A stretch of 64,000 nucleotides of DNA from Branchiostoma lanceolatum (lineage: Eukaryota > Chordata > Leptocardii > Amphioxiformes > Branchiostomatidae): positions 15,303,029 through 15,367,028 of the forward strand of contig NC_089737.1 in the NCBI RefSeq assembly GCF_035083965.1. The letters run 5' to 3'. Made by a program: the position numbers and the translations under genes. Every line of letters starts with the position of its first letter. Position 1 is the stretch's first letter. The notes beneath the pieces were generated by a model. That model saw only the letters and a list, made by a program, of their open reading frames with translations. It was not told the DNA's origin and did no database searches. Below are positions 5,379 through 49,917 of this stretch, piece after piece.

Positions 5379-8300
5379 ATGTCGCTGAGGGCTTGGAGTC
5401 GAGTATCGGTCTTCGTTTTCCTTCTTGTCGCCGCCTCATGTCAGGAGGAAGCTGCCGAACAGGCGGTAAGACATTTGTCTTCATATGAGAAATGTTCTTG
5501 AATGAAACCTGACGCCACCGATGTTGTGCCCTTGGCAAAGGCGCACTTTACACGACTTTCCTTACTCCACCCAGGTGTAAAAAATAAGTTATTGTTCTCT
5601 GTACGTGGCACTGTTACAGTAGAATAAGTTATGAAAAACTTGAGTGCAGTGCCACGTCGCCCTTCTCTGTCCAAAAGGCCGTAAGTAAGAAAAGATATAC
5701 CGCATGATGGGGTATTGTCTCGTGAAAACTCATAATTTGGTTGGACTGACTTATTCTTGTAATGCAATTAAGATCTGAAAGGCCATGTCTATACCATCTT
5801 TCGTTCCTCACCAAGGAAAGTGACGGCCAGCCTGACCCGGCACAAGACACTGATGGCCAGGATTCTCAAGACACCAGCGGGGATGCCCAGCTCCGTAAGG
5901 AGTGCTGCCTCCGCGGGGAGGGCTCCACCAGTGGGTGGGGGAGCTGCGTGGGGAAAGCCCGCCGGTATGTCAAGACTCTCTCCCTGGACGAGGACAAGGG
6001 CAAGGTGTGCAGAGTGGCCTTCAGCGTCTGCTGCGGCAAAGCTACACCTTCGGTAAGTCTGTTTTGTTTTGTTCTTCGTTTCGTTTTTTAATTTTTTGTT
6101 GAAATTTATAGCAAAGTCATGCCTATAGGCACTTTAGTAGATTCAAGTACGCATGTGCAGTGTCAAAGGTGAAGGTCCCTGACTTGTAAGCAGTCCATAT
6201 CTAATCATTGTCTCGATTTGCATAACGATTTGCATAATGATAGTATCAAGAACTGCTGATAAGTTAGGGGAATTGACTTTTGACGTCATGCATGCGCAAT
6301 AAGCTAGTTCAGAGTTACTACTACGCATGTGCAGTGTCAAAGGTGAAGGCCCCCGAGACGTGAACAAAACCCGTCTGGGAATTGCAAATCTAGACAATGT
6401 AGAGATGAGCACTGTTTACAAGCCGGGGGCCTTCACCTTTGAAACTGCACATGCGTAGAAGCAACTCCAAACTAGCTTATTGAAATCGTGAACCGGTTTA
6501 TTATTGAAATCTAAAGCGGGGATGATAAACATATAAACATTTTTACATGCGTTTTCCTTCACCCGTAGTCTCCGGATAAAGACGTGAAACAACTAGGCGG
6601 CGGTTCCAGAGCAAGCGGAAGGCACAAGGGACATGAACCGGGTAAGTTAGGATTGTATAAGCCCACTCGATAGATGGACAGATAGATAGATAGATGGATG
6701 GATGGATGGATGGATGGATAGATCGACAAATCTATAGATCGACAAATCGATAGGTCGATAGATCGATAGATCTTTCTGTATTTGCCAACACAAACATTTG
6801 GACTTAAATTTTAGACTATTGAAATACAGTCTTTGTTCAGTTCAGTTCATCCTCTTTTTAGAGGTGACACAAGCGTTTCCACAAGTTCCTGTCGCACATG
6901 ACAGATGAATGAGTAGTCTGCTAATATCATTTCGATTTTTCGACAGTTTCGGAAGCGAAGCGTGAGTACTACAGAATCCGCGAGGAGTGCTGCGAGGCCG
7001 GGCATCAGTCCCTCCGCCAGCCGGGGCGCTGTTGGCCGAAGGCCCGTGCTTATGTCCGGACCCTCACCCTGAGCAAGAGCAATGCCAGAATGTGCAGAAT
7101 GCTGTTTAGTGGCTGCTGCTACAGGGCCAGCAGAGTCGCCAAACCTGCGGTACGTCTCTTTTCGTTTGATGAATGAATGGTTTTATTTGATTATTTTGAT
7201 CGGAGATGGAAAGTACCTCGCAAGTCGTAGCCATAGGCTGAATTGCGTACTTTTTACACATGTTCTTAAAGACTAATGACATTGGGAATTCTACTGGTTA
7301 CAATAATGATATCATCATTCCTATTCAACAATAAATACATTCTAAAAATCACAGATAAACACTACCTTAAAACAGGTAGGTTGAACATGGATACGTCGGA
7401 ATTCATAATACAAACATAATTATCATATATACACTAAGTAACGGTAAATTCTTTAGCTGGCAATCATAACCATCAATATGTCGCAAATTTCTTTCTTGTG
7501 TACATGTGTATTGCCAATGACAACGACAATAAAGGAGGCCATATACATCAGGGCACTCCAGCCATCACTCAACAGAGACAGTGGGCGTTATAAACTTCCT
7601 GGCACGTTTGACCAATTGCTGACGTCACATAACCATAAGGACACGTGTCAATAAATTCATGTGTCTGTGACTCTCGCAAGTTTACGTTCGGAAGTGATTG
7701 ATCATTATTGATCCTGAAGAAGGCGACAGTGGTGATTGAAATTTTGATCGGTGAATACCCAAATCACGGTGTTGGAAGAACGTTTAGCATTGTATTATGA
7801 TCACAACCAACACAGATAAGCTTCCACTCGGAGATTCGAGTACGCATGTGCAGTGTCAAAGGTGAAAACAGTTCTGTCCCGACCATTGTCTCGATTTGCA
7901 TGACAATGCCCAGAAGGGTTTTGTTTACGTCTCCGGGGCCTTCACTTTAGATACTGCACATGCGTACTCGAATCTACGAGTGGGCTTATTGACAATGACA
8001 ATAGACCCCTTTCCAAATACCGCGGCCATTTTGAATCTAGCGCGAGCGCGCATAATTCGAGCGCGGGAAAAGTAAACAAACGGTAAGCGGTAAAGCTTTG
8101 CAATGGCGTCCCCAATAGAAAGCAGTGTTGAGTCATCTTCTGCCTTGGACACATATCGAGTCCAAGTGTCCACAACAATATTATCTACTTGTGACATGCA
8201 AATATATCGATAGATTTCACCGAGGAGGAGAACATCTCGCCGCAGAAGATGACCCAACGCTGGTTTCTATTGGGGACGCCTTACCGCTCGAACCACGCGC

Positions 8301-17926: not shown

Positions 17927-20900
17927 CAGAGAGAGAATAAGAGAAAGAAAGGGGCAGGATAAGAAAGCGAACGGTCCCCCCTTGGAGGGGATGATACTGT
18001 AGCATTATAACGATGCCTCTTCAAAAAAATCTTTCAATCTGACCAAACAGATGGCACATTTTTGTGTCTAATTTCTCCAGGGGTTCTGAAGGTCAATCAG
18101 GTCCTACAGGCCGTAGTAGAGCTTCTCAAGGTCAGACGCAAAACTCAATTTTTTTGGGGGGTCTTATCCTTTGTTTAAAGTTGCTCCCATAGTCCCGAAA
18201 AATTGACGTCACAGTTGAACGTACCATTTTCTGCTGCACCCTCTGGTACCAGTTGTAGAAGACTCCGAACTGGCTCGGCACGTCCTCCTTGGAGATGACT
18301 TGCCACTTCTTCGCCATGTCGCAGTAGCGGCCGAGCTGCGTGGGGAGACAAATGGCATCTTTATCTTGCCTAGTGTATATCAACAGTCACGGCGTAGTCC
18401 ACACACTCTTGTATTCGGTAGATTAGCCTTATGGAACTGTAGTTTTGTACCAGTAGATGCCGTACTTGTGCAATAAAGATGACTAAGATGGCCCATTTTC
18501 TGTTCTTACTTCCAAAACTTCCTATCCAATGTACTTGTTTGTAGTAGCTACGTTTTGAGGTGAAGATTTCTTAAAAGCTTATCTTTTGACAAAAATGAAA
18601 TGAAATAAAGATTTACCCTTTCGGGTGCGATGGCGATGGCGCGGTTTCTCCACGGGTTCTCAAGGTCGATCAGGTCCTGCAGGGAGTCGTAGAACTTCTC
18701 AAGGTCAGGGGTGAAGTCTGTCTCATGAACTTCCTCGTCGTACCAGTATCTGTTGATACAACACGTTGCATTAGATCATTGAAAAACACCAAGTCAATAT
18801 ATACATGTACAGCTTTCATTGCATTTGACATATTTGTCAGCGCAAAATGAGGTCGGGCATTTTGAAACATCGGATGAAACTAGAGAGCCCAACGTTATGT
18901 CACTTTATTTCGAAAACAAGATGTACCTACCACCCAATATGTGACCAAAGAAATACAGCTTTCACTTAATATTATGGTTTAGAGTCTACATGTCGAGAAA
19001 CTACTAGCCTCTACCAGGCTCCACAGGTCGCTGGAAAAATGGTTACTGTAGAAATTGGCCAAATAGACGAATAACATGTCACAGGAGTCGGTCCGCCAAA
19101 GACGTTACAGTTTGCGTCTATTTTGGCGAATTTCTACTTTTTTTCCAGCGACCTGTGGAGCCTGGAAGAGGCTAGGAAATTAACATTAACCTGACCAAAA
19201 AATGCAAAACAACATACCTCTCCTGGTCGAAGCACTCGGCGCGGCGCCCCTCCTCCTCCTGACAGCAGGGATGGCTCAGCCCGAACCTGCCGTGGGTGGT
19301 AAGGTCCTCCCGGGAGCACAGGGCGTCCATGTCTGTCTTCTGCTGGGACCTACGGGGGAGGAATGATGTACAAAATGATGACCAGGACAAACTAGCTTTA
19401 AGGTGTGACAACAAGCAAGACTTGGTACTTTTAGTCAGACCATGAAGGAATAAGGAGTAGTCATCACTACATTGTGTCTAAATGCTCCAGAGGCCAAAAC
19501 ACATATACTGAAATTGTAAACGCCACTGACACTGAAAAGATGTAGTGGATGCTACCTGAAAGGTCTGAAACAATATCATATACAGTTGATTAAGTAAATA
19601 TTTTGGTGTATATTATCATAGTGTGTATAAGAATTTACCTGAAGCAGTCTTCCTGCTCCTCGCCTTCCACGGAGCAACACCTGGAGATTCCCTCCTTACG
19701 ATCCTGGAGCACCTGTAGTGCGCAGGTAAAACTTAGTGTATTCTGAAACACTGACTCAATATGTTGCTAATGAAACTTGAGGAAAATGTTAAGTCAGCTA
19801 AGAAATTTGTTACAACCTTAACCCATTTCTTAGTGCACGCTACACTAGCATGAAGTAAACAAATACGTTGGAAAATGTGCATGAACTTTGACATCTTAAC
19901 TTACCTCTTTGTACTCCTCGTCGAACATGTGCTTCTCGTGTTGGTGTCCGAACATTGTGGGCTTCTGGGAGAGAAGAAACGAATGAATGAATGAATGAAT
20001 GAATGAATGAATGAGTAGATGAATGAATGATTACATAGATAAACAAATCTGTTTCTGTATAGCCGATGTAACCGCCATTCGGCTTAACGCACCAGCTTGA
20101 ATCGATGATTTAATTAATGCATACATACACAAAAGAAACGAATTGAATAAATAAATGAATGTATGAATGAATGAATTGACCCTGACCTTATCAAACCTGT
20201 GCTGCTCGTGCTTGTGCCCCAGCAGTGCTGGCTTGGGCTCCTCCGCGCTGCGCTGCGTGCGTCTCATGGCCACTCCCTCACGTGCCTTGTGGGCTGGGGA
20301 AAAATTATGTCAAATGAATGACTGAATGAATGACTGAATGATTGAATGAATACTTAAATAAATGAATGAACAGCTACGCAAGATTTCACATGCAAGGCGT
20401 TAGTATTAGTCTGATTCCTCATATTTTAATCATTTCATCAAGTTATCTAGCTTATGAAAGAAAAGGCTAAATAATCAAGCTAATGGAAATACGACTACGA
20501 CTAGGACTAGTGGGAGAAAATTTAGATACCCTAAGGGCCTTCCCCTATTGTGATAACTGAATCAGTTCGAAATAGCTCAAACCTCAACATAGTTAATGAG
20601 ACTGCCCAGTTGAATGTATATAGATGACTCAAAAGTGGCTATGACCCAATCTTACCGAGCTGCTTGACTCCCTCGGCATACCGGTTGCCGCGCTCCTTGT
20701 TTGGCATATCGGGTCTCCTGTGCATGGGGTGGTTGGGACGGTTACGGCGTTCTTCCATGCCAGGACCAGGTTTGCGCATGTGCGGACGGGGGCCGGGGCG
20801 GTCTTTCCCTTCCATGCCAGGTTTGCGCATGTGCGGACGTGGTCCGACGCGGCCTTCCTCCTCCTCCATGCCTGGGCGTGGTTTGCGCATGTGCGGGCGG

Positions 20901-23900
20901 GGGCCGCGGTGCTCCTCTCCCCTCATGCCGGGACGGGGTCTGCGCATGGGCGGGCGGGGGCGCTGTCCAGTCGGGCGCTGCACTCCCTCCATGAGTTGGC
21001 AGAGGGCGCTGATGCCCTCGGTGTCGGTCTGCCGGGGGGCGATGAAGGTCTCATTCCTGTGTTAGGCTGTTCAATTGGAATCAACGATGAAATACGCAAC
21101 TTTATGACTAAAAATCTAGAAAACAAAAAAAAATTATGGAGTCGTTTTACTTTCTGTTGGAAGCACACGTATTCGTCGTGAAATAAAAAAAGATTCACCC
21201 AAAACTAACCGTGACAATGATATTTATCGCATTTCAAACTGCAAGTACCCACTATCCGCACGAGGCCGCTGTTGTACCTCCAGCGCCGACCGCAGCACTC
21301 CTAGAAACATGAGTATCGCTCGTATCCTATCGCTCGGATGACGAAACTTTCCTACCCAATCCTGACAGTTATAAACAAGCTTTCATCTAAAATTCTTCTT
21401 ATATCAGATCAGGCCGATAAAAGGCAATATATGATCCACCTAAACACACGCCTCTTATGCCCGGTTATTGGTTTTGGACGGATTCTTTGGGAGGGTACAC
21501 GCGGATTAATACAGGAGTGAGACCTTAATAACCATCGATTATTAATATGGTTTGTCAATCGAAGGAATACTTGTCTCCCGATAATCTCTGAAAGTTTTTC
21601 TGCTTTGCGTCACTCCGTTGCTAAGCAACAGCGCAATGAACATGCCTCCCTTTCGGCCTTGGCAGCGCCACCTACCAGATTAGTCCAGAAGTCCAATAGG
21701 TGTAACCACAGGATATAGAGTTTGACCATCCTCGGCCCTTATGACGCACCGGAACTTGATATTTGATCCATTTTCGGTGATTTTGTCAGAGGAACGTGCT
21801 CGGCACATATTGTGTTCATTTATCTCAACCAACTACGAAGAAAAGGCCTTTTCGACGACATGAAGAAGAGGAGGAAGGAGAAGGGCATTAATAGAGGGCA
21901 ATTTGGACACAGAAGTCAGCCTGGCAAAGAGCAGACCAGTTCAGATGAAGATACCAGTTCAAAAGAAGATGGCAGCAACGTCGAAGAGATTTGTCGTCAC
22001 AGGAGCGACATTTGGAGCTTGGCGACAGGCCAGGCCGGTGCCAATCCTTCACCAGGTAGGCTGCGTCCCTTACCCGCCGAGCCGACTGAAATTGCAAACT
22101 TAGTAGAGGTTGAGAACGAGGAGATCGAACGCTGCGTTCGAGGGCAAAGATTGTTTTTCGTGCCCCTCTTACTCAAATTGATTAATGACTTCCTGACGTA
22201 CCATTCCCTTGAGAATCCTAAATGCAGCCCTCGGTGCACCATGCCGACCTCTGGCGAGACACAGCGCGGGTTTGTGTCAGAAGAAAGCCTGGAGTGTATC
22301 AGGTGCGGGTTCGTGTTCGGCCCAGTAAAGTTATATGAAGAGAGTGAGCGTCTTCCTGGCAAGGAGAGGGGACCACGGCCAGCGAAAACGAATGTCCAGT
22401 TTGGTGTGGGTCTCACCAAGATCGGCATTGGCGTAACGGGAGCCAAGACCCTTTTCAGCGCTATGGATATATGTACGCCGAGTATGTCCAACATGCATAA
22501 CACGGTGACTGGGGTCTGCGACAGCATGGAGAAGATTCTGGAGTCTTCTCTAGATGACAACAGAGGAAAGGTGCGCCAGGCACTGAAACTCCGCGGTAGA
22601 GAGGTTGTAGAGGGAGAGCCGTTACCGATCGATGGAATAGCCGATGGCGCCTACAACAACCCGTCTTACCGCGGTGTGTCTCAAAGGGCGACACAGGCCT
22701 CGCTACCTCTCTATGAGACGGAAACACCCGCGCAACTGTTGGTGGGGTTCCAGTTTGTCAATCAACTGTGCAAGAAAGGAGAAATGCTGAGGGCACGCGG
22801 TGAGGAAAACCCTTGCCCAGGGCACGAAGGTGATTGCTCTGTCACTTTTGACCCTAACCAACCCATAGGAAATGCCGAGAAAACCATGGGCGAAAGGGTT
22901 GCGTTGGACTTGCTCCGCGGTCCAAATCCGCTAGCACTCTCTGGTCTTACCACCGACAACGACGGCAAGACAATTGACGGCGTCCAAAAGACCTATGACA
23001 CCATGAAGGCTAAATACCAAGCCCTTCAGAGCATGAAGAAGGCGAACGAACACTCCGGCGACGCCGTGCCATCCACGTCGTCAACCCAGGATGAGGTCCC
23101 GGGCCAAGTCGAGGGCAAAGGAGAACCCGACGTAATCGGCGGGTATCACATCTGGAAGGAGGGCGTTACTGTACGCAAGGAAGACTGTGTTGTCCACGTT
23201 TCACGTGGGCAGCGCAGGACCGTCTTCAAGCTGCGACTGAGCGCTCAACTCATTCTCGGAAAGCCGCTACCTTCGACGTGTAAGAAGAATCCGTCCCAGG
23301 CCCAGAAGATTCGTTTCTGCCACATCCTTAGCCACGCGTTGTCCCGACGTTGCGAGACGGAGCTAGAAGTGGCAAGGGCACACTTTCCAGTGGATGATGA
23401 AAAGTTCATAAATGCGGTCACAGCTGCCAAGAACAACATTTTGGACTGTTTCAGTGGAAACCACACCAAGTGCAAAGGCGTGTCGTTCGCCTGTAAGGCT
23501 AGAGCTAACGACAACGGGAGGTACAAGCCATACCACCTACCATGGAAACAGGACCTGTGCATGGGAGAAGGGGACAGGGAAGAGCTGATGACGTCTATTG
23601 AATACAAGTTATCACCTGAGATGATCAAGCGCCAACGCAACCTCCGATCAACCAACATTTGCGAGGCCCATCATCTGCGCACACTCAAGTCGGTTCCCAA
23701 AGCAAGAACACTCAAACGGAATGCGGCGGGTAAGGCAGCAAGTGCCGCCCATTCCGCGGCCGTAGGTGGAATGGGCGAATCTATCGCCAAGATATCAAAG
23801 CGTCTTGGTTGCGCCTTGCAACGAGGAGGCCCAGGAGCTCGGTTCCTGTCCCGGGCAGACAGCAAGGCGAGAGCAGACAAGATTCGACAGAGGGGAAAGG

Positions 23901-26900
23901 GTTACAAGACCACAAGAGTGAAGACATGGTGGAGGAAAGAAAAAAGGAAGAAGGGATCTGGGTACAAGGCACAGCACCTTCATCCGAACTTTTCCAAAGA
24001 ACACAGTTACAGCGAGAAAAGGGACTAGACAATGTGCGTCGAGGTTGTACTAGGAAGCTGTGTGTTATTGTGAAACACTATATCTACATATAGTAACATT
24101 TCTCACACTTGACCTTTAAACCGTACCTACTCGATGCGTTCGTGCCCGGCGGTCGTGCCGCCCGTGACTTCCCGTGACCTTCCTTTTTTTTGGGGGGGGG
24201 GGGTGTTGGGGTGTTGTTGTGGGGATGTCGTTTCTTATGGGGGGGGGGGGGGCACAGTTCAAGCATTTGACGGATTTATTGCTTTGTGAGGCACTTGGGG
24301 TATCCTGGGTGTCCTGTACATCTGTCGTGATCGAAGCAGTTCTTCCTCTGTTGGTTAACAACGCTCTCCTCGTAAGATAGATGGGCTACATTCACGCAGA
24401 GCTTGTCGTTGCAGAGGTGGCTAACGTGCTTGTGTGTTTGGAGGTAGGGAAGGTCCGACTTCAGGAAGTAGGCCAATCGGTGAGGACCGGCCACGCTTCC
24501 ATCTCCTCCCTCTGCTTTCGTGACCACGATCCGCCCATACCCTCGCGAGTTCTTTGCCCCAGTCCATTTCACGCAGCCTCCACTTGTTGCCACAGTCTTC
24601 CGTGAAATCTTGGTCAGTAACTTTGCTGCGTTATCGGCAGAGGGACGTTTATCAAAGATATTCCCACTACTACACGAAGCCATGTGTACAGCTCTCAGAT
24701 TCCTTTCACACTCCAAGGTGAGAAAACGAAAGGCTGGGCCCTAGATTACGCGAGCGGCTATCATCCAATCAGATAGCTTAGCGTATTGTTATGATTGACG
24801 TTCCTAATACCCGCGACGGCGGTTTATGGCTATTTTGCCCTTCTTTCGTTTTCTAAAGGTACCATTGTGGCATGTTATTACTGTAATTTCGTTATTCGGT
24901 TATATCTATGATTGGTAGTACTGTTAGTAGAAGTTTTTGCCTTTGACTTGAGCGGGGCTTGTCGACATTTCTGTTCTTTTCGACATTGACCGTAATTCTA
25001 ACTGTACAGGATTGCTAATTTTGTCTTCATATAAACATATGTAACATGTACTGTGCGTGAGTGTCTTTTTTTGTCCTCAAAATCGTTGTTATAGCGCTGT
25101 TTTGTAAAATATATAAATTGCCACCCCCGTAAAAGTAGGCACGCCCGTTTCCATGGTAACGGTCAAGGGTGAACATTGCAATTTGTGTCATAGAAACGCA
25201 CATCGCAGCCTGGACCTAGATCCTTTTGAAATTTTCGACCTACCACCAACCGCTGATTTTTAATGAATATTTTAAATTTCTATTAAGGTCTCATTCCTGT
25301 GTTAGGCTGTTCAATTGGAATCAACGATGAAATACGCAACTTTATGACTAAAAATCTAGAAAACAAAAAAAAATTATGGAGTCGTTTTACTTTCTGTTGG
25401 AAGCACACGTATTCGTCGTGAAATAAAAAAAGATTCACCCAAAACTAACCGTGACAATGATATTTATCGCATTTCAAACTGCAAGTACCCACTATCCGCA
25501 CGAGGCCGCTGTTGTACCTCCAGCGCCGACCGCAGCACTCCTAGAAACATGAGTATCGCTCGTATCCTATCGCTCGGATGACGAAACTTTCCTACCCAAT
25601 CCTGACAGTTATAAACAAGCTTTCATCTAAAATTCTTCTTATATCAGATCAGGCCGATAAAAGGCAATATATGATCCACCTAAACACACGCCTCTTATGC
25701 CCGGTTATTGGTTTTGGACGGATTCTTTGGGAGGGTACACGCGGATTAATACAGGAGTGAGACCTGAAGCTGGGGGACCTGGGGCAGCTGAACGGGTTCT
25801 TCTTGATGTCACGGAAGGCCTCAACTGAAATGAAATAGAAAATATATAGATATTTGCAACTTCTTTGCAACATTGTTATGAACAAGGGCTACCCAATCAC
25901 TTTCTGGATTATGTTCGTTGCATCCTTCCTCTCTCTTTCTATTTCTCTCTCTCTCCTTTTCTATCACCCTCTCTCTGTTCGCCGTAGACGTTTGGTTGTT
26001 CACACGGCTAGCTGTCATTATTTTAGTTTGTTAAATAATACATTCATACTATCATTGGAGGGTGTTGGAACTATTTCTGCTGTGCAAGGACATTAAAGTG
26101 TGTTGCCTCACCAGCTTAAACCCCCTGGACAGAGCTTTTTGGAAGAGTGGTGTGAAGACTAGCCGACTGCTGCCCACCCGTGTCAGGGACCCCGGCAGCA
26201 ATATAATCAAATAATGGATACTATAACGTGTGCCCGGACTTACCGTTCAGAGGAATCTGGTCGTCATACATGGAGTCGCGCTTGGAGCCGGGACGGACCA
26301 TCCTCGGCCGGTTCTTGTCCTCGCCCTCGGGACGCACCACCCTCGGCCTGTTCTTGTCCTCGCCCTCGGGACGCACCACCCTCGGTCTGTTCTTGTCCTC
26401 CCCCTCGGGCTTCCTACCGGGGCGGGGCACGCGGCCGGTCGGGCGAGGGCGGTTGTCGGGCCGCCGGCGATCCTGGGCCGCCTCCACGTTGGCCCGGACG
26501 TGCTCACGTGCCTTGCTGATGCATTCGCTCCTCTCATCACCTGGTAAGAAAGACAGACACAGTTCGGGACCAAATCTCAAAGCAAATGTTGTGGAATATC
26601 GGATTGCTGAGAGCTTTTCTGTTAGTCTTCTAAGTCGGGTACTAAGTATATTTATCATGAATGACAGACTGATACCAGGGACTTCACAGGCCAGTTTCCG
26701 CGGTCGCAGGGAAAAAAAAATGTACTGCTGGCACTGTTAGAGTTAAACCCTGCGATGGCCAACGGGGTAGAGTGCCGCCTCTGGGAGCCTGACGTAAGTT
26801 TCTCCCTCAGCAGAATTGATCGGTATCGCCTTGTGTGCGGTGGCGTCTGGCATTCATGCTAGGCATCTCTTTTGGGGTGGGTGGTTGTCAGAAAAGCTCG

Positions 26901-29900
26901 TCAGTAAGGAAATCTTACGTATACGATCTTTCATCCCAACTGAAAATTACGTCATAGCCACGTGACGACCAATATCCAATGATCAACGGGAAATATGATT
27001 TACCTTCGTAGCGGCAGCACAGCCCCATCATGGTCCAGAAGCGCATGCGCTTGGGACGCTGACCCAGCCTTCCCTTGGCGGCCTTGCACAGTCTGTCGAA
27101 CTGGGCGCCTGGAGGGAAAAACAAAGAAACAAACCAAGAATGTAAGCCAATTGCACGTATGCAATGCGAAACATTCCTTAACAGTATGTATCAAAAATCT
27201 AAACATTATAGTACTTGATGAAAAGATGCGGAAAAGGACTTTTAAAATGAGAAGGAAGCAGGTATGTCAATGAATGATGTCGATTACAAATTCGATTACA
27301 AAACACAATGCGCACCTTTTCCCAATACAGAATAACATATTTATAAAACAAAGTTAAGGCAAGATTAGGAAATCTTACCGTCCATGTTCTCAATATCTTC
27401 CTCTTCTTCTTCGTCCATTTCTTCTTCATCAGATTCGGACATCTCCTCCTCCTCCTCCCACTCTTCCTCTTCGTACTCAGACTCCGGCTCGTACTCGCCG
27501 TCTTCCGCGATCTCCTTAACAACGGTCATCATGTCTGTTGGAAATAAAGAGAGATGTAATATGATGACAATAATTCAGTGTTTTAGTATTTGTATCGTAC
27601 ATGCTTAGATGCAAGCACAGTCTGGCTCTGTGGGGAAGACTCCAAAACGTTATATACAGCGTCTCCTACAGAACTGTAACCTTGGTCCAATGCATACAGA
27701 CGGTGATCTACGGGAGGTTAACCCTGTCGATGGCTTCGCAATTCGGCTCTAAATCGGAGTTTTCCGCGATCTCCTTAACCACGGTCATCACGTCTGGTGT
27801 GGACAAGGAGAGAAGTAAAATGAGGACAAAGTTTCACATGTAATGTTTTTAATTAATTAACAAGATAATCAAAATACGGGACATTCTTTATCACTATCAG
27901 AATAGCAGTGAGTATGTGTAATATTTCCTGAAGCAGGGGGTAAATAAAGATGATTGTTACCTTTCTTTGGCTGGTATTTCTCCACTGGCATCATCTCTGC
28001 TTCCTCTGTTACAACAAATCGAAGTTTAGTTTTTCAAGCATTGTTGATTTACAACGGAGGCTAAAAACTGAAATGTACAAATGCTACTTTCACAAAATGA
28101 CAGTGTTGATTGCTACAGTATACAGTAATTTTACGATTGACATCGAAATTTCAACTAAAAGAACGATTACGTTTCACGAAATTTAAGCTTCTGATAGCTA
28201 CTCTGGGAATGAGATCGTGGCCCGGGCGTCACGTGAGTGTTCTCACCTTTCTGTCCTTCCATCTCGTTCTTGACGTCGGCGTCATAGTTGACGTCTTCCC
28301 TTGCGCACACCGTCTTGGTCAGCGGCCCGTCTTCGAGACGACCGTCGTCAAGGTAGTACTTGGTTTTGTCTTCAATCACCGTGGCCCTGGAGGGAGAGAC
28401 ACGAGATAGCAATGTAGGCACATATACGTAACAAGAGGGTCAGACGAGGGTCAGATGAGGGTCAGAGAGATAGATTAAGGTTAAGACAAAACATTTTAAC
28501 AATGTGTAGTGACTACGTGCATGCGTATACATACTTTGTAATGTGTTGTGCGACATCGACCTTCAGACAAAGCTCGGACAAAGGCAGACCTCAAAGACGA
28601 AGGACTGAGACCTATATTGAAGGTGGCAAACTTGTTTCCCAATAACACTGGTAGGATACACCCCCATAAACTTCGGGTTTGTAAAAGCGAGAAAGATGAG
28701 ATTCTACAAGCTATGGGACAGATTCTCCGATATCATAAGAAAGAAACATAAAACAATATATGGCATGTAGTGTGTTGTGCACATCAAAGATATGGCTCAA
28801 AGGCGAAGGACCTGGAATTTTAAATTAAGAGAGCCAACTAATGTCTGAGGATATTTCCTAAGAATAAGACACAAGTGCACGGTGCTTCCACTAGTGCAAA
28901 ACACCCTACATTGATTATCGTCATGTAGACATTTAGATTATCGTCGTGTAGACATTTAGATTATCGCCATGTAGACGCACAACCCTCATTGACAATCTAA
29001 AAGGGATGTTGGGCTCAGTGACATTTCAATAAAAAGAGCTGAGATCGCTAACGGAAGACCGGACTGAGTGGTTCAGAAGGACTCATTGTCTCCCGAGATC
29101 ACATCACAGATGCCCTCGTCCACCCCCGGACAAGCATCATTTAGTTACTGTACTAGAACAACAGTAGCTAATTGAACTATTGGCATAACTTTGTCTTGAA
29201 TTAATCTTCTTTTTGAAGACTACTTCAAGACATCCTAAATTGTCTTTACCTCATTAACATATCTATTCAGAGTTTTGGTATAAAGCTGGTGTTCTCAGTC
29301 CTATCGTTAGTCACTGACGAAAGACAGTGGATACTGTCTGAAACGTCTGACTGTTTCAAAATCTTATCCAGTTGCTTGAGTAATTATTTTTGGCGTCCTC
29401 GTCCAAGGTTCAAGACACTTACCTGAAGGTGACGCATCCGCAAGGGGGCGCTTTCCAGCTGAGCGGCACCTTGATGGTTGGCTCATCCTTACTGTTGATG
29501 AGCACGTTGCAGTGCTTCAGTTCCTTCACGCCCTTGTGGTACGCCTTCAGCTTTCCCGGCGTGCACTTCGCGTCGTCTGACGTCACGCTGACGTGGAAGC
29601 CCTGGAACATCCGGCCGCGGTCGTTACTGCGCAGGCCCACTGGAGGGAACGAGGGAGTGAGTGAATGAGTGAGTGAGTGAGTGAACGAACAGATAACAGC
29701 AACAACAGAAAGACCCAAAACCGGTTCCGCTGCAATACTACTAGTATAGCAAATCGCTAGGGTCCTCTTAACCTTTCGAGGTCTCACAATGACATGCCCA
29801 TCTAAACAATCCTTCCAGACATTCATGGGTTGTGGTGTACCATATAAAACCTCCTTGGGTGTACACAGAAGGAAGGACACACGCACGAAGTGACGAACGC

Positions 29901-38140: not shown

Positions 38141-40807
38141 CTACATGTCAGACAACTCGAACATGTCCGATTTCTTTGTCTCCTCGCAGCACCGTATGAA
38201 CTCCGTAGAACACGAGATTCGATGGTCGTCATGGAAACGACGGACGAACCGCTGAGCCTCACTGGCGCATGCGCGGGACAAGCCGGAGCGGCGGCGTCCA
38301 GTTCTGCAACATTTCGACAGGAGGCGCTTCTTGTCTGTTGCTGCAAAGGCAAACGAGTTGGTGCATTATAATGTTTTCTTTTTTGTCAAAACGAAGGATG
38401 TCTTAGAAAATAACAAAGATGATAAAAGGACGGATTGCAAAAGAAAGAAATTATGTATCGACATCAAATGATTAGCCTCCTTCGCAGACTTCCTATGACA
38501 GCGGCGTATATATTGGGGGGGGTTCTCTAAAGGGAGTTGTGTAGCCAAGGGAGTTGTGTAGCCGAGGGACGGCCGTTGTTCATATCCAGTCTGCTTCAAG
38601 ACTGGATATGAACAGCGGCCGTCCCTCGGCTACACAACTCCCTTGGCTACACAACTCCCTTTAGAGAACCTCCCCCCCCCCAATATATACGCCACTGTCA
38701 TAGGAAGTCTGCGAAGGAGGCTAGGCAAATTACAACTTGACCTGTCTACCATTCATTCGTTTGTTCGTTCCCTGAAGTACGTGCATAGTGGCGGATAGGT
38801 CACCGAGTTTCCTTGCTGTTTAAGTAGCATGGTATATTTTTACCCTTCCCCTTTAACGTGCTTGAGGCACCTTGCTTGAACACGGTACCCCCACTGGTTA
38901 AGTTAACGTCCCTTCCGAAAGACGGATGCATCCCCAACCGAGAAGTCCTGACCCAGGATTGAACCGGGGTCTCCCAGCTAGCGACTAATTTCATACAACA
39001 TGTACAAGACGAAAATTACTCCTCACCTATCTTGCGGCTTATGTCGCCTTTCTTGAATTTCTTCTTCCCCCCACGGTCGTCAACTTGTTCCTGTAAAACC
39101 TTCTTATTCACTGTCTTGACAGGAACTCTTTCTTCTTCGTCTTCTTTCTCCTCTACAGCCGCGTCACTCTCAACTTCTTCATCCTCCTCTGCTGTTAAAA
39201 CGTATAAAAAAACACAGAAAATATCAATAAAGCAGAAAAGGGAAAATGGGTTAATACAGTAGTGTGCATTTAATGCTATGCCGCAATACATAAACCCACA
39301 TATAAAGAACATGAAAAGAAGATGTCTATTTTCAAACGCTCATTTCTCATCATAATAAGTGAATTTTTTCCACAAAAATTAAGGCGTAAATTGTAAAATG
39401 GTAGGAAGTCTAGAAGTCGATCCTTTATTTTTTTTTCACCAAGCCTCAAAATAGATCAAAGAAAGACACTATGTCTCAGACTTTTACCATTAGCTGTAAT
39501 AAACTAATCGTGTAATAACTAATGATTAATAACTAACTTCTCTAGGTTAGTAACAGTGATATGTAGGATTGATCATTTTGATGTGTTTAAAAATTCGTAT
39601 TTTCCTAGAACGATTGTAGAGTGGAACTCGTTACAACCAAGTACAGTGGAAGCATCCTCATTAGATAGCTTTAAACAATGTATGCAGTAAGATATGCGAA
39701 GGTTAGACGTGACAGGTCGTTCGGCGTAATATAACCAGCTGCTACCGCGCCGCGTGCCTGCGAAGCTGGTGTGTTACGCCGAATGGCGGTTATACCGACT
39801 ATATAGATACAGATACAGATGTACTGTAACTAACCCAACTCCCAGCTGCTGAGTGCAGAGTTGACGGCAATCGCCCTGCTCTTTGTGTGAGGCGGTTGGG
39901 TGGAGGTTGCCTCGTCTTCCTCTGCTATCTGAAGAGTAAAGGAGACTGTTATCTACACCGTGAGAAGAGACCACTTGCCGTGTTTGATATCAATAGTGTG
40001 CAATGTAGATAAATATCCAAAGGGATGGTTCTGTGTGAAGACAACAGTTCTGCTGCAGTACAAAGGAAAACAGCTTGGATCTTCATTTTTTTCGAGACCA
40101 ATCCATACCCATGCATCACCAAAAACACCTAAATCTTCTTGATCAGTCAAGAGAGAAGCAGAGAGTGAGAAAGGCAAAGAGAAAGAAAGAGGAAGAGAAT
40201 TTTATGAGAGAGACAGACTGAAAGAGAGGGACGGAGAGAGGATACATTAGAGAGGAGAGGATACATTGTACAGTGATCAAGAGAGAGAGAGAGAAAGAAA
40301 GAAAGAAAGAAAGAGAGAGAATCCTAGTAGAACAAATATTTCTTCCTGAATTAGAAAAAAAATCATATGACAAGTTGCCCGCTCCTAACCTGCGGCTCCT
40401 CTCGGAAGAGTTTGTTGACCCAGACCCGGAAGTGCTCCCTGTACACCTCCAGTTTCTTGCTGTAGTCGTCCTGATGTATTTCCGGGTTAAACATCGCGTC
40501 CTCTTGATCAAAACACTCGTACCTCTCGTCTGCAGTTGCCTGGCAACAGGGATGGTTCGGTTCGCTCGGCAGGGGTGCCCTGCTGCAGTAGTCGTCCAGC
40601 CTGAGCAAACCAAGCGTAGATTTTATGATGATAGCAGAGCCCCTAGCATATTACGGAGGTACTACAGCCAGTTGTTAAGGATGCTGATACTAGTAATATA
40701 TCTAAAATCTGAGAGGTGCATCCTTTCTCTCAGAAAAGACATCTCTGTGCAGTGTCTCTCTCTCTCTCTTTCTCTCTGTATATGTGTGTGTGAGTTAGTT
40801 AGTATGT

Positions 40808-40843
<36 letters not shown>

Positions 40844-43800
40844 GTGTGTGTGTGTTTGTATGTGTAAGTGACGCCTCACAGATTGCATTGCCTTATGAAC
40901 ATGATCTTAGTAATCTGCCCCAACTCTAACCAGAATACGTCTTAGAGTAAAAGCTCTGAGTTGAAAAATGTAACAAAGTTTGCTGCCTATCCCTCTGCAG
41001 TTCCTCACCTTTTCCGCCTGAGGGCGCCCAGACACGCCACCCTGCCCGACTCCATGTCCTCGCAGCACTCGATCATCTCCTTCTTCAGCGCCACGGACTC
41101 CGAGTCGGTCCTGTTCCTGAACGGGGCGCACCGGGCCGCTCCGACCGGCTCCTCGGGCGCCATCCAGTGCCTGTCCCGCCAACACAGGTGCCGAACCTCC
41201 GCTGGAGTGAAGCTGTGAGGCCGTTGAAGTTGCGTGTTCTTCAGGGCATTGAAAGCTTCCCACTTGTCGAAGTACTCGACCAGTTCTTGGGTAAAGTCTG
41301 TTGTATGCGCGACTCTTTGGTAACCATATTTTACCTGGTCAAAGCATGAGTACCTGTTTTCGTCGGTGTATTGACAGCAAGGTTGTTGGATACCGAAAAC
41401 AATGAGGTCGTTGTCAGGGAAAGGCTGCTGGCAGACTTCGTCCATTTTCGCCCTTCGCAAAAACTCGAAACACATCATGCGGTCGAGACCATCCAACTGA
41501 CAACAGTGTTGGAGGTTGGCCTCGTGGAGGATGTGACGTTGGGAGCGACTTCCGGCCTCCTCCGAGCCCCCGCCGGAAAGTCTCCTACCGAGGTTTTGTA
41601 GGCGGACGTTCCACTCGAGGCCTCTCCCGCTTTCTTGGGGGCGGCGCCTCCTTTCCGGGACGGCGTCCCAAAAGTTCGGATCTTTTTGCAACAATGTCGC
41701 GTTGCAGATTTCTTCGATTGCCACGAGGTCCATGCCTCTTGGAAGAATCTCGGCGGGACACTTCGGGTTCGGGATCGCGAAAGCCGACGGCGTCGCTTTC
41801 CGATCGTTGCCGAGAATACCCGAATGAAGCCCGAGCGATGGCTTCATGACGATGTCAGGCAATGAAGCATCGGGTCTGATTGGTCGGCCTCCAGCCAATG
41901 GGTGCCTCTCTAACACTCTTTCGTCCAATGGGTGCCAGCCCATTGGAAATGAAGCCCCAGGTGGGAATTTACGATGTGTTTGTTTCAGCGGCTTTGCGTT
42001 TGGCTGCGGTTGCTTCGGCGGGGGCGGCATGGTGATTTCGCTGCTGTCAACGTTTTCGCCTTCGGTGGTGAAAACCTCCTTACTTCCGGCTGTTCCCGCT
42101 GGTCCTTCTGTATGACAAATGTAAAAACAAGATCTTATTAAAATGAAACTGAAAACAAAAATCATTCTATTTGACAAAGTTCTTTCTTCACAAGCAAAAG
42201 TTATAACAGCCGACGTTTCGATGACCATCTGTCACCTTTCTCAGTGCAATTCTGACTGGTTCTGCCCTAAGGAATGTGACAGATGGTCAACGAAACTCAC
42301 TCGCTCGCTCGCTCGCTCACTCACTCACTCACTCACTCACTCACTCACTCAGGTCCGCTTGCTCCCGAAGCGACGTCTGTTAATGCTTTAATCTTTGATT
42401 GTGGATAAGGAACTTCGTTATTCAGTCCTTCACCAACCTGATGAAATCATTCACGTCTAAAGTGAATCTTAGCTTTGAAGATAAGTATATACTCTGAACA
42501 CATTGATGCTGTAAACCCGTCTATCAAAACACTTATTAGCTTTTGTTTGGCAACAGTGTAATAGAGACACCGGGTTCTGGTATGTAAGAGATGTCTCGCT
42601 TAATCAGCACTGGTTTTTCCTGACGCCAGAATAGTTGTTTTCCGGTAATTTAAGTAACCGACAAATATAATAAAAGAAGCGTTTCAAATTACCGACGCCT
42701 TCGTAGACACAGATGGTCTTAGTCAAGAACCCGGATGTGATGGCTTCATCCTCCATGTAGTACGCCACGTTGTTCACCCAGACAGTCGCTCTGAAAAAGG
42801 CACGTCACAAACTTAACGTATATCAAAGTTTAACCGGTCTTTGTTGGTAACTAGATTAAGCCTGATACTATCCCCATTGTAGCTGCTATTTTCTTAGTCT
42901 CCTCCACAATTTGTAGATACCAGCAGCAAGTTTGTACCTTTTGCTAACTTTAATGTCCTTCTTTCAGGCTAAATGGCACACGCACTTCTAACACATGATC
43001 CCTTATCTCACAGCTTATTAAGTTTTATTCAATCGGGACGGGGGACGATACGAACTTCCGATGACCTTTGACCCATTACCTACTAGTATGTCAAATCAGT
43101 AGCAATCGTCATATTTTGTGCTCCTTAAAACAAGATAAGAACAAAAGTAAAAGTGATTCACGTTTCTAGACTCACCTGATGGTGACGCATCCACAGGTGG
43201 GCGCCTCCCACCTAAAAGGTATCTTCATCTTTTTGTCCTCCATGGCGTTCACCAGGACGTTGCACCTTTTCAGGTCCTTGACCCCCATGTGGATGGACGA
43301 CAGCACGCCCCCGGAGCACCCCGTTGCCATGGCTGACGTCACGCTGACGTGGAAGCCTGTGAATGGCTGCTTTCTGTCGTTCGAACGAAGCGCGACTGTA
43401 CGTGGAAACAAGACGAATCATTTTTGTGATCGGTGGAAACACTCTTAGCTTTATTTTTACTTTTCAAAAACGTTATCTTACTCTTGGTGCCTAGCTAAAG
43501 CAATGGTGTTGTATTGATGTGACTTCTTAGGCATTTATGACTTGATTTATGTATAAGTACATACAACAAGGGCTACCTATTAGCAAAAGGGTATTACAAA
43601 AAACTACCCGTGGTGGCTGAAGAATATACAATGCAAGTGGTTACAAGGAACACTTCTTTTTACGTAGGTTACAAAAATGCAATGAGGAATCTATATGATG
43701 CGGTGACCTTCTGGTTACTAGCCTCCCAAACACAATATCTATTATTTAAAAATAACGTTAGAAATATATCTAAAAGCCACCTGATATGATCACTATATGA

Positions 43801-46800
43801 TATTATATATACAATATTAAGACATGTCATTTAGCACGTATTGATATTTACCTGTGTAGGTACCGTTCGGGATGAAGCCGTCCACCACGTCAAAGAGATC
43901 CAGCTCGAACAGCGGCTTCCTGCTTCCCTGGCGGAGCTGGTTCGGGCGCCCCTCGGCACCCCCCTGCACCAGGTCCCGAGGGAGTCGGTCTGGGCACGCG
44001 GTGTCATCACGGTCCGGGACTGGGAAAATTACAGATCAATTTCAGGTACCGATGTCATGGTATCATAGTTAAATACGTATGGTTGGCACAAATTATATTA
44101 AGCGATAAGGTACTATATGTTGGTTATCAATCAATCAGTAAATCAATCAGTCATATAATTGTTTACAAAAAAATGAGGAAAAGTTCAATTCATAATAACC
44201 TCTTGACTGTGAGTATATTGTTTAGAAAGTAATTGCAAACACATAGCTGCAGTTCCAAACGACTCGGGAAGGGGGCCATTTGGCCTTTTAGAGGCCTACA
44301 ACGACTTAATATACACATGTTAAAATTGCCAAAATTGAACTGAAATTCAAAAGAAAGCCACGCATGGGGACCTAGAATTAACTTGATCTTTATGAGACCC
44401 AACCACATATATAATCAAATATCATAGCAATCCATACGACATTTGTTTAGACCAAGCTTTGCTAATGTAAAAGCCCATAGTGGACTCATCCCCCCTTCCT
44501 TATAGATATAGACTCTTCCAGTGACGTCATGGTTAGAGGAGGAGAGACGTAAATAAAGACTTGTTGGAACTGTCTGCATGACTTGAGCTATCACAGGAGA
44601 TTCACCTGGACAGGCCAGAAATGGTCCGTTACACTAACACTAACATTAGTCAAGGACTTACACACAAACCAACGGCATCGAAAACATCAGCATGACCTAC
44701 TTGACGACTGCCAAAGCAACAACAACAGGAAGTAGGCGCCACATTCTGGATGGTTTATCTTTGAAGCCTTCCAGCGAATCTAATTCCATGGACAAATCAC
44801 ACGAAATATTTGGTCTGTGTACATAACAGCACGCTGATGCTGTTTACATGATCCCGATCCCAGAGTGGCGGGTGGCTGACAGTTTGTGTACAACTGAGGA
44901 CATGTAACATCTGCGAACTGGTCATTACTCAGCGATCTTTGGAGAAGTAGCCTTACCAGTGCCAAACAATCAGAGCAGAGCACAGTGCTCTACCTTGACA
45001 TTTGCTAAACTGTAATTGGTAAGCCACCTAGGATAGCCTCCGATGCAGACTCCTCCACAGTTTTGTACTATTACAGTTTTCTTATTGCTGGCCGGGAAGC
45101 AATAAGAAGAAAAAAATGTAATAGTATGAAACTGTAACTTGAAAAAGAAAACAGCCGGGAGGAGTCTGCATCGGAGGCTACACCTAGGGCACTTTGCACC
45201 TGGTCTATAAAAGCCAGAACACACTGTACTAGGAAAAAGACTATCAGATAAGTGTTCATGGACTGTTACTTGTCCACCACATGTAAAACATATTTCTCTT
45301 TTCAATGTGACACGCAAACTTTAGAAAATGCTAAGGAACATGTGTCAATCGAATTGTCAAAAAAGCTTATCTATGCACGAGGTTTGAAGCAGATCATTTG
45401 ACCGGTGTGTTTGTGTGAGTGTGTGTCTGTGTGTGTTTTGTACGTATTTTGTGGTCAGTATCTCCAGATAGATTGTATCGATACTTGGTGTGCTGGTAGG
45501 TCTTAGAAAGACAAACGTCAAAGTCAATTTTGGGCCCCCTGGTGTGTGATCATGGTACTGAAGCAGAACTTACTGTTTTTGTATCTTTTAACCTGAACGT
45601 GCTATGGTCTTGTTGTTGTGAGAGATGGGCTAAGGCGCGTGCACCTGACCTGGCCACATAGACCTGTCTTTCTCTCTGAATGTTTAATAAACAAAGCGCC
45701 AGGGTGGTTAGAGGAGTGGCATGACGGCCTTATTGTGTCACATTTTAAACGCACCACGCACCACCGTATGAAAACATTTATATTTCGTGTTTACGTTCGG
45801 ACTCATCTGCCAGCTACTCTAGTACCGCGTGTTAAATGAGTGTTCTTCACGTGAAAGCCAGTTTACATGGCTGCCTGTGACGTCTGGAATCCTATAATGC
45901 TATGGTCTGGTTTGCGCGAACGAAAATCAAAAGTAAAGAAATATATACAGAACTATGGTCATGACTAATTTTTCATGTTTCGTGTGTCTTGCTGTCTCCT
46001 ATAAAATACGTTTCGTTCCCACAAACTGCCCGGCCGGGCCCCGGTTTGGAAATGTGTCTCTGTTGAAACACGTTGAAAAATCCCTGTCAGTATGGGCCGA
46101 TCGCTGAGTGACCGTAGAGCGATTAAAAGTGGATTTCAGGATGATTTTATAATTGGAATACGATGTCAGATTTAGAAGACAACGAAACAAGCATAAAATA
46201 ATTCATTCGCTCTTTATCTATGAGATTCGTTAGGCGACCCCTAAGCAGCCAAAGTCTCCTGTGGAAAGGGAGTGATACTCCTGAGAATAGAGGGCTTCTA
46301 ATCGCTGAACTGTTGCCAGTTTGCTATAAAGGAATGCCTGTTCTTCAAATGTTTTTGTTTTCAGTAAAACGAAAGGGGTTAAGTGAACCCTTCTACAGGG
46401 GCGTGTAAACATCCCTGACCTGCTTTTTCAGGCGGCAATGACACCATCTGTCTTATTCGCAAATGCGCATACAAATACTGTAAATACAGAAATGTTCGCG
46501 ATGCTTTAATGTTTGCGGTTTTCGTGATGAACTTTTCATCGCGAACTTAAAGCCACGGTCGTCGTGCGGTCGTCGTGCGGTCGTCGTCCGGTCGTCGTCC
46601 GGTCGTCGTGCGGTCGTCGTGCGGTCGTCGTGCGGTCGTCGTACGGTCGTCGTGCGGTCGTCGTGCGGTCGTCGTGCGGTCGTCGTACGGTCGTCGTGCG
46701 GTCGTCGTGCGGTGGTCGTGCGGTCGTCGTACGGTCGTCGTGCGGTCGTCGTGCGGTCGCCGTGCGGTCGTTGTCCGGTCGTCGTGGGGTCGTCGTGCGG

Positions 46801-49044
46801 TCGTCGTGCGGTCGTCATACGGTTGCACCATAAAGCCTTACAACGTACGATGCAAACTTACGGTGAGATGAATGCAACTGTCCGAAAAGCACAGTACTAG
46901 TATTTCTTGTTTCTTTCACTGTAACTTTATGTTTACTGTTTTCACTGTCATCTCTGTACCATGAAATTATCATCACCGTGAAATAACCTGTTGCTATCAT
47001 TTATGATTCCTTCATACATCTGCATCGTGAAATTGAAGTTCAGTGAAAATGTCCATTTTCCTTACACCATGAAGCTACAGTGAAGATAAAGTGAATTACA
47101 CTATGTCTTCTAGGCAAGGTGACAACTTTAGATTTTTATGTAGTATGAGATGCTCGGTTTTTAACATCTTCACTGTTGACTCTTTGGGATGACTAAAATG
47201 GCTACTGTAGTACAAAATGGCAAAACATGCATATGGTGAACTGTATGCCAGAGAAGCCATTCCAGTATGATCTTCCTACTATCTTTATTTGCACCCCTGA
47301 AAGGAGTGAAGATCTTGTGGAGCCAAGATTTCGTAACAGTTCAGTTGAACTTGAACTGTGTCCAAGACTACCGAACTCACCGGAGGCCATTGCAAAGGAC
47401 AAACTCGTACATTCTGGATGAGAAAGTTTTGGCAAACACGCAGAGAGACTTGTCTCTACTCTTATCGTTAGTGTTGATCTTCCCTGGCACAGAAGGCCAG
47501 TAGCGTATCATGACAGGATTCCAGGGCTCGGCCTTGTGGGTTTTGAGCGAGATTACTAACCACTAAACCGCTCCTCGTCTCTAGGACTGTATTAGCCTTC
47601 AAGCCAGATCATGGCCATGGCCATGGCCGGCACAAGCCAACTCGCCTTGTCTAGGGGTGACATGCCCCAAGGAAACTTTGCATCCCCCCCCCCCCCCCCC
47701 CTGAGGGTAGATCCTGTAGTACTGACCCTGACTACTGTCCGGGTTACCGGCTACGTTCGCATGTGAAAAAATTGCAAGAATGAAAGGTTCGACAGTCTTT
47801 TCGGTGCTGTTAAGTCACTTGTCAGCTTGCCGGTCTAATTGACCACCAACTTTGATATGCAACATTTAGTCAAAGGGTTGATATCCGTCTAGACCCACAA
47901 GAGTGGAACACAAGACCAACATGAGAACGAGAGTTGTGCTCAGTGCCTAAAAGGCACAGTCACCTTTGCTTAGACTTACGCCGCAGCATTATTAACAGAA
48001 CGTGGGGCACAACATCCGCAATAAAAGAATAATGGAGCTCAAGACCCACTGGAGTGGAGCACAAGATCAACATGAGGACAAGAGTTGTGTTCAGAAACCT
48101 ACAAGCAGTGCAGTCTTTCACCTTTGGTCAGACTTACTCCGCAGCAGGACTCCTGGCCAGACCCTTCTGTGTAACGATGTGCACATTCCTCAGTGATAAA
48201 GCTGCCAAAAATCCTCACTGATCACATATTAGCACAACAGCCGGCTCGATAAGGGCCTCTCACACCCCAAGTATACGCGTAATACTATAAATGCGGTAGG
48301 GAGAAAATGGAGTGTTTTTGGGTTCACGTTTTAAACAATAGTAGTGCTTCAGCTGTCACACAATTGAAACGCTTTTCGCAGTGGTTTTAAGTTTGCGGTA
48401 AAAAGTTCACCGCGAACATAAAACCACCGCGAAAATTTCTGCATTTACAGTATATTCTACAGTAAGCCTACAGTTGAGCGGCGTGTTGAGTGAAGTCGAA
48501 TACATTGTTGCGACGGATAATCTTGCCGCAAATCCTTGACGACCGGTGTCCAGTCATCGTTTCGAACGACTACAAATATCAAGACGTCGATCGGCTTCTC
48601 TGCCTGTCAAATTCCACGTAAGCCGATATGGATAGGTTATGACAGCGATTTGAGAACATGCTTAGGGACAGCCATGGATGTTTCTCGCAAATTTCAGCTG
48701 TCTTGTAACCAATAAGTTTGTCGACCATTGGTTCAGCTATTTTACTGTACGATAATACATATTGTATGTTACTTTGCCGTTATAAGGTAGTCTCAGCCAG
48801 ACTAACTACGCCAGATATAGGGAGAATATATGCCAAGGAAGTTTTCACCAAAGGGTTTTATTTGCAAGCGACTACTGGCCAATTATTCATTTTTTAGTAG
48901 AATTCTACGATCCACACGCCCGTAGGAAGGCCTGGTGGAGGCTAGTGATAAGGTACATGTACCATGTTTGTGCTTACCTTTGCACAATCCTGTAGTCAAG
49001 AAGATCGCCAGCAGACAGACGGCGAGCCCGAGCGAGTTCTCCAT
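38141..49044 (-). CDS. Reeler-like / ECM1-like secreted protein with C-terminal ANATO, 9 exons, 773 aa; paralogue of the 25-exon gene
   Basis: Exons: 49044-48978, 44019-43852, 43395-43176, 42790-42693, 42107-41009, 40600-40390, 39928-39835, 39191-39027, 38340-38141 (TAG). All joins keep phase. Order: signal peptide (LAVCLLAIFLTTGLC); Reeler-like domain over exons 2-4 (CPDRLPRDL, GFHVSV, RWEAPTCGCVTIR, YYMEDEAI), closely matching the neighbour; a long Pro-rich linker, then ECM1-type loops in the 1.1-kb exon 5 (HCCQLDGLDRMMCF, PCCQYTDENRYSCFDQ, ECCEDMESGRVAC) and in exon 6 (PCCQATADERYECFDQ); two acidic exons; a final ANATO ending CSTEFIRCC, 18 residues before the stop. The ANATO frame of the last exon is fixed by phase. 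The first four exons match the paralogue in phase and near-match it in length. Probably an extracellular matrix protein; function unknown. Exon 7 is the weakest call. Confidence 0.83.
38473..38723. mobile_element. 251-bp near-perfect palindrome
   Basis: Arms of about 120 bp separated by a 6-bp loop (38593-38598). Tips are TAGCCTCCTTCGCAGACTTC and its complement. Arm identity looks above 95 percent, with a poly-G/poly-C length difference. It ends 133 bp from the final exon of the 9-exon gene, in its last intron. Confidence 0.9.
40740..40872 (+). repeat. TC and GT microsatellites
   Basis: CTCTCT run, then (GT)n of about 55 bp with few interruptions, in an intron of the 9-exon gene. Confidence 0.9.
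42296..42352 (+). repeat. CTCG/CTCA microsatellite
   Basis: CTCG repeats pass into CTCA repeats. Confidence 0.9.
45034..45180. mobile_element. Palindromic MITE, TAGCCTCCGATGCAG tips
   Basis: TAGCCTCCGATGCAGACTCC and GGAGTCTGCATCGGAGGCTA at exact ends, in intron 1 of the 9-exon gene. Confidence 0.85.
46477..46553 (+). mobile_element. MITE fragment, AATGTTCGCG family
   Basis: TACTGTAAATACAGAAATGT plus TTTGCGGTTTTCGTG; fuller copies at 48283-48453 and 51977-52172. Confidence 0.6.
46556..46822 (+). repeat. 11-bp minisatellite (CGGTCGTCGTG)n, about 24 units
   Basis: Near-perfect 11-bp units over 267 bp in intron 1 of the 9-exon gene. Because 11 is not a multiple of 3, all frames stay open and give Arg/Thr/Asp or Arg/Ser/Val repeats; these are not genes. 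Confidence 0.95.
47860..48150 (+). repeat. Diverged tandem duplication of ~125 bp
   Basis: AGACCCACAAGAGTGGAACACAAG... and AAGACCCACTGGAGTGGAGC..., both followed by ACATGAG, GAGTTGTG and GACTTACKCCGCAGCA. Confidence 0.7.
48283..48453. mobile_element. MITE, ACTATAAATGCGG / TTTCTGCATTTACAGT ends
   Basis: Inverted ends and CCGCGAACATAAAACCACCG core shared with 51977-52172. Confidence 0.65.
48788..48944. mobile_element. TAGCCTCTACCAGGC-family MITE, diverged
   Basis: TAGTCTCAGCCAGAC start and GGCCTGGTGGAGGCTA end, next to exon 1 of the 9-exon gene. Confidence 0.55.
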
Positions 49045-49709: not shown

Positions 49710-49917
49710 TAGCCTCTACCAGGCGCCACAGGTCGTTACAAAAGTAGTAGAAATTCGCCAAATAGACAGATAACACATACCAATGGAGTTAGCTGGCTAA
49801 GGGGTACAGGTCGCACTCTTTACCCCTTTGCCAGCTAACTCCTCTGGTATGTGTTATCCGTCTATTTGGCGAATTTCTACTACTTTTGCAACGACCTGTG
49901 GAGCCTGGTAGAGGCTA
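49710..49917. mobile_element. TAGCCTCTACCAGGC-family palindromic MITE, 208 bp
   Basis: Best copy: arms of about 90 bp, including CCAAATAGACAGATAACACA and its near complement. Confidence 0.85.

Follow-up and report, generated by a model that had tools for sequence, protein, structure and literature searches.

A 4718-bp transposable element lies in a 64-kb stretch of Branchiostoma lanceolatum DNA (64,000 nucleotides of contig NC_089737.1, hereafter the window, to which all positions refer) and consists of two identical 478-bp long terminal direct repeats (LTDRs) around a 3762-bp internal region (INT) carrying a transposase gene and a nuclease gene. We read it, with a probability of about 95%, as a structurally complete LTDR-INT-LTDR monomer of KolobokP, a lineage of Kolobok DNA transposons described from seven phyla by Kojima and Bao (2022, Mobile DNA 13:24; PMC9587614), the source of the statements on KolobokP below. 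Its published hosts include B. belcheri, B. floridae and B. japonicum. The kind of element is already known from that work, and the family found in the window has itself likely been deposited.

Architecture of the element

The repeats are 100% identical, and the exact match between them spans 481 bp (21045-21525 and 25285-25765), with AA on the 5' side and T on the 3' side fortuitously common to both; a match of this length excludes a chance origin. Each repeat has the ends 5'-GG...CC-3' and imperfect inverted tips that match at 16 of 18 positions (GGTCTCATTCCTGTGTTA versus GGTCTCACTCCTGTATTA). TGAA is duplicated outside the element on either side, as judged from this single copy, and TTAA adjoins the inner side of each repeat, the INT running from TTAATA to TATTAA. 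The transposase and nuclease frames, which face each other tail to tail, are both open, and the only further frame of at least 180 aa in the element is antisense to the transposase. An earlier interpretation of the letters alone (the sequence-only reading) had described two apparently identical direct repeats, inverted tips within each, an outer TGAA duplication and two intact tail-to-tail genes, all of which held, the repeats to the base. At a blastn threshold of E 0.01 the 478-bp unit occurs twice and the INT once in the window, with no solo LTDRs or multimers, and an Rfam scan of the window matched no family.

Table 1 Coordinates of the element, its parts and the putative interrupted host exon in the window.
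Feature	Position	Strand	Basis
Putative host exon remainder, to stop	20639-21046	-	Inferred
Left target-site duplication, TGAA	21043-21046		Sequence
Left LTDR, 478 bp	21047-21524	+	Identity with 25287-25764
Left repeat 5' inverted tip, GGTCTCATTCCTGTGTTA	21047-21064	+	16/18 versus other tip; inverted-repeat pair
Left repeat 3' inverted tip	21507-21524	-	Inverted-repeat pair with 5' tip
INT, 3762 bp, TTAATA start, TATTAA end	21525-25286	+	Sequence
TTAA, left INT tip, inner junction	21525-21528		Sequence
DDD/E transposase gene, 722 aa, Kolobok-type	21860-24028	+	Pfam PF20700 (Mutator-like transposase) and motifs
His-Me finger (His-Cys box) nuclease gene, 135 aa	24276-24683	-	Pfam PF05551; PDB profile matches are I-PpoI
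TTAA, right INT tip, inner junction TATTAAGGTCTC	25283-25286		Sequence
Right LTDR, 478 bp	25287-25764	+	Identity with left LTDR
Right target-site duplication, TGAA	25765-25768		Sequence
Putative host exon first part, interrupted by element, splice-acceptor-like sequence before	25769-25824	-	By eye; inferred

KolobokP has been reported with this layout in 228 autonomous and nonautonomous families, most of them encoding both proteins, and its published traits are LTDRs of about 450 or 660 bp (repeats of 473 and 480 bp being quoted in the former class), inverted tips of 11-18 bp, 5'-RR and YY-3' ends and target-site duplications of 3-5 bp; solo LTDRs and multimers belong to the published picture too (PMC9587614). 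The window element agrees on each trait that it displays: its 478-bp repeats fall in the ~450-bp class, its tips match at 16/18 positions between GG...CC ends, and its duplication is the 4-bp TGAA, seen in one copy. Its size, gene order and strands fit as well, 4718 bp comparing with 4022-4748 bp for autonomous oyster KolobokP families (PMC9587614).

The same observations bear on two alternative origins of the structure. Two copies of an unrelated family of miniature inverted-repeat transposable elements (MITEs) could have inserted, each at a TTAA, to the left and right of a standard pair of Kolobok genes, with no joint mobility; each LTDR does resemble a MITE, having inverted tips and a TTAA next to its inner end. 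We regard this as highly improbable, given that two TTAA insertions would leave TTAA on the outside too, whereas a common outer TGAA is expected of one insertion, that the repeats are identical throughout and that the layout recurs in the 228 published families, most with the same two proteins (PMC9587614). To an assembly artefact, in which a single 478-bp MITE would have been duplicated to give the second repeat, we give next to no credence: the two copies are indeed identical and were judged from the assembly alone, but both have TGAA outside and TTAA inside, and the architecture is that of a published lineage (PMC9587614).

The two proteins and their relatives

The transposase frame is open from stop to stop between 21767 and 24028, with the first ATG at 21860; a GTG start at 21812 is a product of the bacterial start-codon setting, and the Pfam scan used 21812-24028. 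The sequence-only reading had proposed a comparison with PF20700 (Mutator-like transposase), and the protein matches this Pfam family at E 1.5e-60. Its motifs, assigned by eye from the published description and including the D, D, E residues, follow the order D262, a CCHC finger (C304-C319-H322-C326), D366/D368, CVVH at 443-446, a second finger (C530-H535-C538-C545) and E602. This is the feature order published for KolobokP, with CCHC after the first D, C/DxxH after the second D and a finger before E. A transposase profile compared with PDB gave only two matches, both implausible (E 0.58 and 0.96).

The nuclease matches Pfam PF05551 (zf-His_Me_endon) at E 4.8e-11, and a profile of five nucleases searched against PDB at E up to 10 gave three matches (E 0.026-0.071), all of them to I-PpoI. 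In this alignment, which covers I-PpoI residues 77-125 only, S97, H98, C100, C105, H110, E114, N119 and C125 of I-PpoI are matched by identical residues of the nuclease. Among the window protein and four relatives (P0006-P0009), S88, H89, H101, E105 and N110 are invariant in 5/5 sequences, as are eight Cys/His residues (C37, C91, C96, H101, C116, C122, H125 and C131), of which C37, C122, H125 and C131 would, by our own assignment from the sequences, be the remaining zinc ligands. On this assignment the nuclease has the set published for KolobokP, namely eight zinc-site His/Cys residues and the equivalents of S97, H98, H110, E114 and N119 of I-PpoI.

In the two proteins scanned against Pfam only PF20700 and PF05551 exceeded the cut-off and no reverse transcriptase or integrase was matched, in agreement with the sequence-only reading, which had noted the absence of a retroviral-type enzyme. 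A long terminal repeat (LTR) element was accordingly rejected, the repeats moreover having inverted tips.

Relatives of both proteins were found. The transposase search, which scored only the best 7999 candidates by common words and is possibly incomplete, gave at least four (P0001-P0004). P0001 (source lgn) differs from the window transposase at 2 of 738 residues and may come from a different copy or allele of the element; P0002 (jgi) and P0003 (B. belcheri) are 66% and 59% identical. P0004, the B. lanceolatum protein Hypp6631, starts with a piece 92% identical to the transposase (22% of the query) and continues with unrelated sequence, and is apparently a chimeric gene model, the alternative being a captured transposase fragment. 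Five of 13 candidates in the nuclease search were relatives: P0005, identical to the 135-aa window protein, P0006 from B. lanceolatum (77%), P0007 and P0008, both from B. belcheri (60% and 62%), and P0009 from jgi (55%). All six relatives scanned matched the expected Pfam family, P0002 and P0003 that of the transposase and P0006-P0009 that of the nuclease. P0002 and P0009 are both listed from a jgi contig of 4181 bases and, judging from this equal figure, probably lie on one contig and represent a second element with both genes.

Among the relatives an organism name is attached to five, three from B. belcheri and two from B. lanceolatum. The latter two, P0004 and P0006, suggest B. lanceolatum as an additional KolobokP host; it is not mentioned in the main text of PMC9587614 and may be listed in the supplements of that paper. 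Scans of IMG/VR gave 72 pattern-matching stretches for the transposase and 129 for the nuclease, none of which was confirmed as a relative, and no match to the exact left junction.

Some of these data weigh against the assignment to KolobokP. Across the five aligned transposases D262 is conserved in 5/5, both fingers and E602 are conserved in 4/5 and the second D and CxxH in only 3/5, on motifs that were placed by eye; the exceptions are damaged or chimeric models, namely P0003, in which the segment of the second D is missing and C is replaced by Y, and the chimera P0004. The I-PpoI match is weak by score, its best E value being 0.026, and the single nuclease sequence gave no match in PDB at E 1. 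Finally, Kolobok elements at large make TTAA-specific duplications (PMC9587614), whereas the outer duplication here is TGAA and TTAA is found at the inner junctions only. TGAA is nevertheless compatible with KolobokP, because this lineage has no strong target preference and yet is placed inside Kolobok by transposase phylogeny (PMC9587614).

The TGAA duplication and the Mutator-like name of the Pfam family are also what would speak for an element outside Kolobok, in a superfamily of its own. We consider such a placement extremely improbable, as the transposase motifs fit the Kolobok and KolobokP description and a published Kolobok lineage combines this layout with an I-PpoI-like nuclease (PMC9587614). 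The sequence-only reading had offered a distinct superfamily as one of two alternatives, and the two fingers, the C/DxxH motif and the GG...CC ends, all features of Kolobok, speak against it; its other alternative, a composite of two MITE-like units around a cargo, is supported, since this is KolobokP as published and the anatomy fits.

Inner junctions and proposed mechanism

In a KolobokP element of this kind the transposase would recognise the LTDR tips. Use of the two outermost tips would move the whole composite; if both tips of a single LTDR were used, only this LTDR would move, in the manner of a MITE. Recombination between LTDRs induced by the nuclease may, by extension from the published lineage, generate solo LTDRs and multimers (PMC9587614). 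The TTAA pair inside both LTDRs could have arisen if an LTDR had inserted into an INT in circular or tandem form and duplicated TTAA there: in a circle or tandem array this pair makes the LTDR resemble an insertion into the INT with TTAA duplication. Directly abutted INTs of KolobokP-1_MeMe, which have TATA tips, keep one TATA (PMC9587614), consistent with reading the LTDR as such an insertion.

The monomer could also have formed on site, if a circle made of INT and one LTDR recombined with a solo LTDR that was already present there, flanked by TGAA. Identical LTDRs fit this route, and the published model b1 yields exactly such a product with unchanged target duplications (PMC9587614), but transposition of the whole element yields the same sequence and the window data do not separate the two; we hold the circle route to be unlikely.

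The inner junctions, whose consensus form is TATTAAGGTCTCA(T/C)TCC on both sides, read TATTAAGGTCTC and have TTAAGGT in common with the I-PpoI recognition site CTCTCTTAAGGTAGC (PMC6294500). Scored against this site out of 15, the right junction reaches 11, the left junction and the circle model 9 each, and the remaining two orientations 6 and 5. The window has 616 oriented TTAA sites, of which five, including the right junction, score at least 11; the probability that the highest-scoring of four oriented junction sites would reach 11 by chance is about 0.03. The best I-PpoI-like site within the LTDR scores 10/15 and lacks TTAA, and 80 window sites score exactly 10. The match between the junctions and the I-PpoI site is weak and suggestive only, because Kolobok ends would be expected to have TTAA beside GG in any case.

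An excised LTDR, or a circle, closed over one TTAA would contain the perfect palindrome GAGACCTTAAGGTCTC, although closure over TTAA turns inverted tips of any sequence into a palindrome. It has been noted that a semi-palindromic target could form where tips abut on a circle, and also that I-PpoI leaves TTAA overhangs (PMC9587614); the match to the inner junctions was not found in the main text of that paper, where TTAA occurs three times, in no passage shown on INT tips. That the homing-type nuclease might cut the LTDR/INT junctions of its own element appears to us quite improbable on these sequence comparisons. Were it so, junction cutting would account for the TTAA tips and for LTDRs being lost and regained, and also for the way in which a homing endonuclease of group I introns came to join a DNA transposon: a Kolobok ancestor whose TTAA duplication beside a GG end was by chance I-PpoI-like could have captured the nuclease as a dedicated end-cutter.

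Insertion site, neighbourhood and related systems

When the element and one TGAA are removed in silico, a minus-strand frame of 175 aa is open across the insertion site; by eye, it is preceded by a splice acceptor and two upstream exons join it in phase. Competing frames cross the element-free site on the plus strand (162 and 153 aa) and the minus strand (114 aa), the repeats and high GC content of this sequence leaving several frames open. The host protein fragment gave no relative at E 0.001 among 1230 candidates and no Pfam family at E 0.1. The element apparently lies in a host coding exon. If this exon is real, the element disrupts a host gene, and its insertion is probably either recent or polymorphic, with which the identical LTDRs agree. 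With identical LTDRs, both frames open and an apparent exon site, the copy appears, from its sequence, to be a good candidate for a KolobokP that was active recently, and may be convenient for bench work on the target of the nuclease; it represents no new kind of element.

The putative host gene (20639-27108, minus strand) encodes low-complexity, charged tandem repeats of the PRPHMRKP type (57-bp unit) and of RVVRPEGEDKNRP (39-bp unit). Elsewhere in the window, several related repeats of about 90 nt in direct and inverted orientation (6120-7994) are possibly a nested MITE family. Near-perfect, fold-back MITE-like hairpins lie at 38515-38676 (78-nt arms at 97%, 6-nt loop) and 49710-49917 (100-nt arms at 93%, 8-nt loop), and about 24 copies of the 11-bp unit CGGTCGTCGTG form an array at 46556-46816. 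A 408-aa frame, open stop to stop on the minus strand (41005-42231), matches serum albumin below the threshold (E 5.8e-4; score 20 bits, cut-off 34.4).

Compared with known systems, the element shows no difference from KolobokP, as described in PMC9587614, in features that can be compared from one window copy, its INT tips being TTAA versus TATA in KolobokP-1_MeMe. The other Kolobok lineages (Kol0, KolobokE, KolobokD and KolobokH) likewise have a Kolobok-type transposase and RR..YY ends, but carry instead accessory KolX, lambda-exonuclease-like, DEDDh or RecQ proteins, and KolobokP is set apart from them by its composite-like architecture (PMC9587614). The nuclease resembles I-PpoI in its His-Me finger catalytic residues and several Cys/His residues, which align one to one over the I-PpoI segment compared; I-PpoI, a homing endonuclease of the His-Cys box type, comes from a group I intron of Physarum, whereas the window nuclease is encoded in a DNA transposon. 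LTR retrotransposons share the long terminal direct repeats and, with KolobokP, the occurrence of solo repeats (PMC9587614), but the repeats of the window element bear 18-bp inverted tips. Bacterial composite transposons and IS26-type translocatable units, an analogy drawn in PMC9587614, also have direct mobile end units around a cargo; here the transposase gene is in the cargo and not in the end units, and no common ancestry is claimed.

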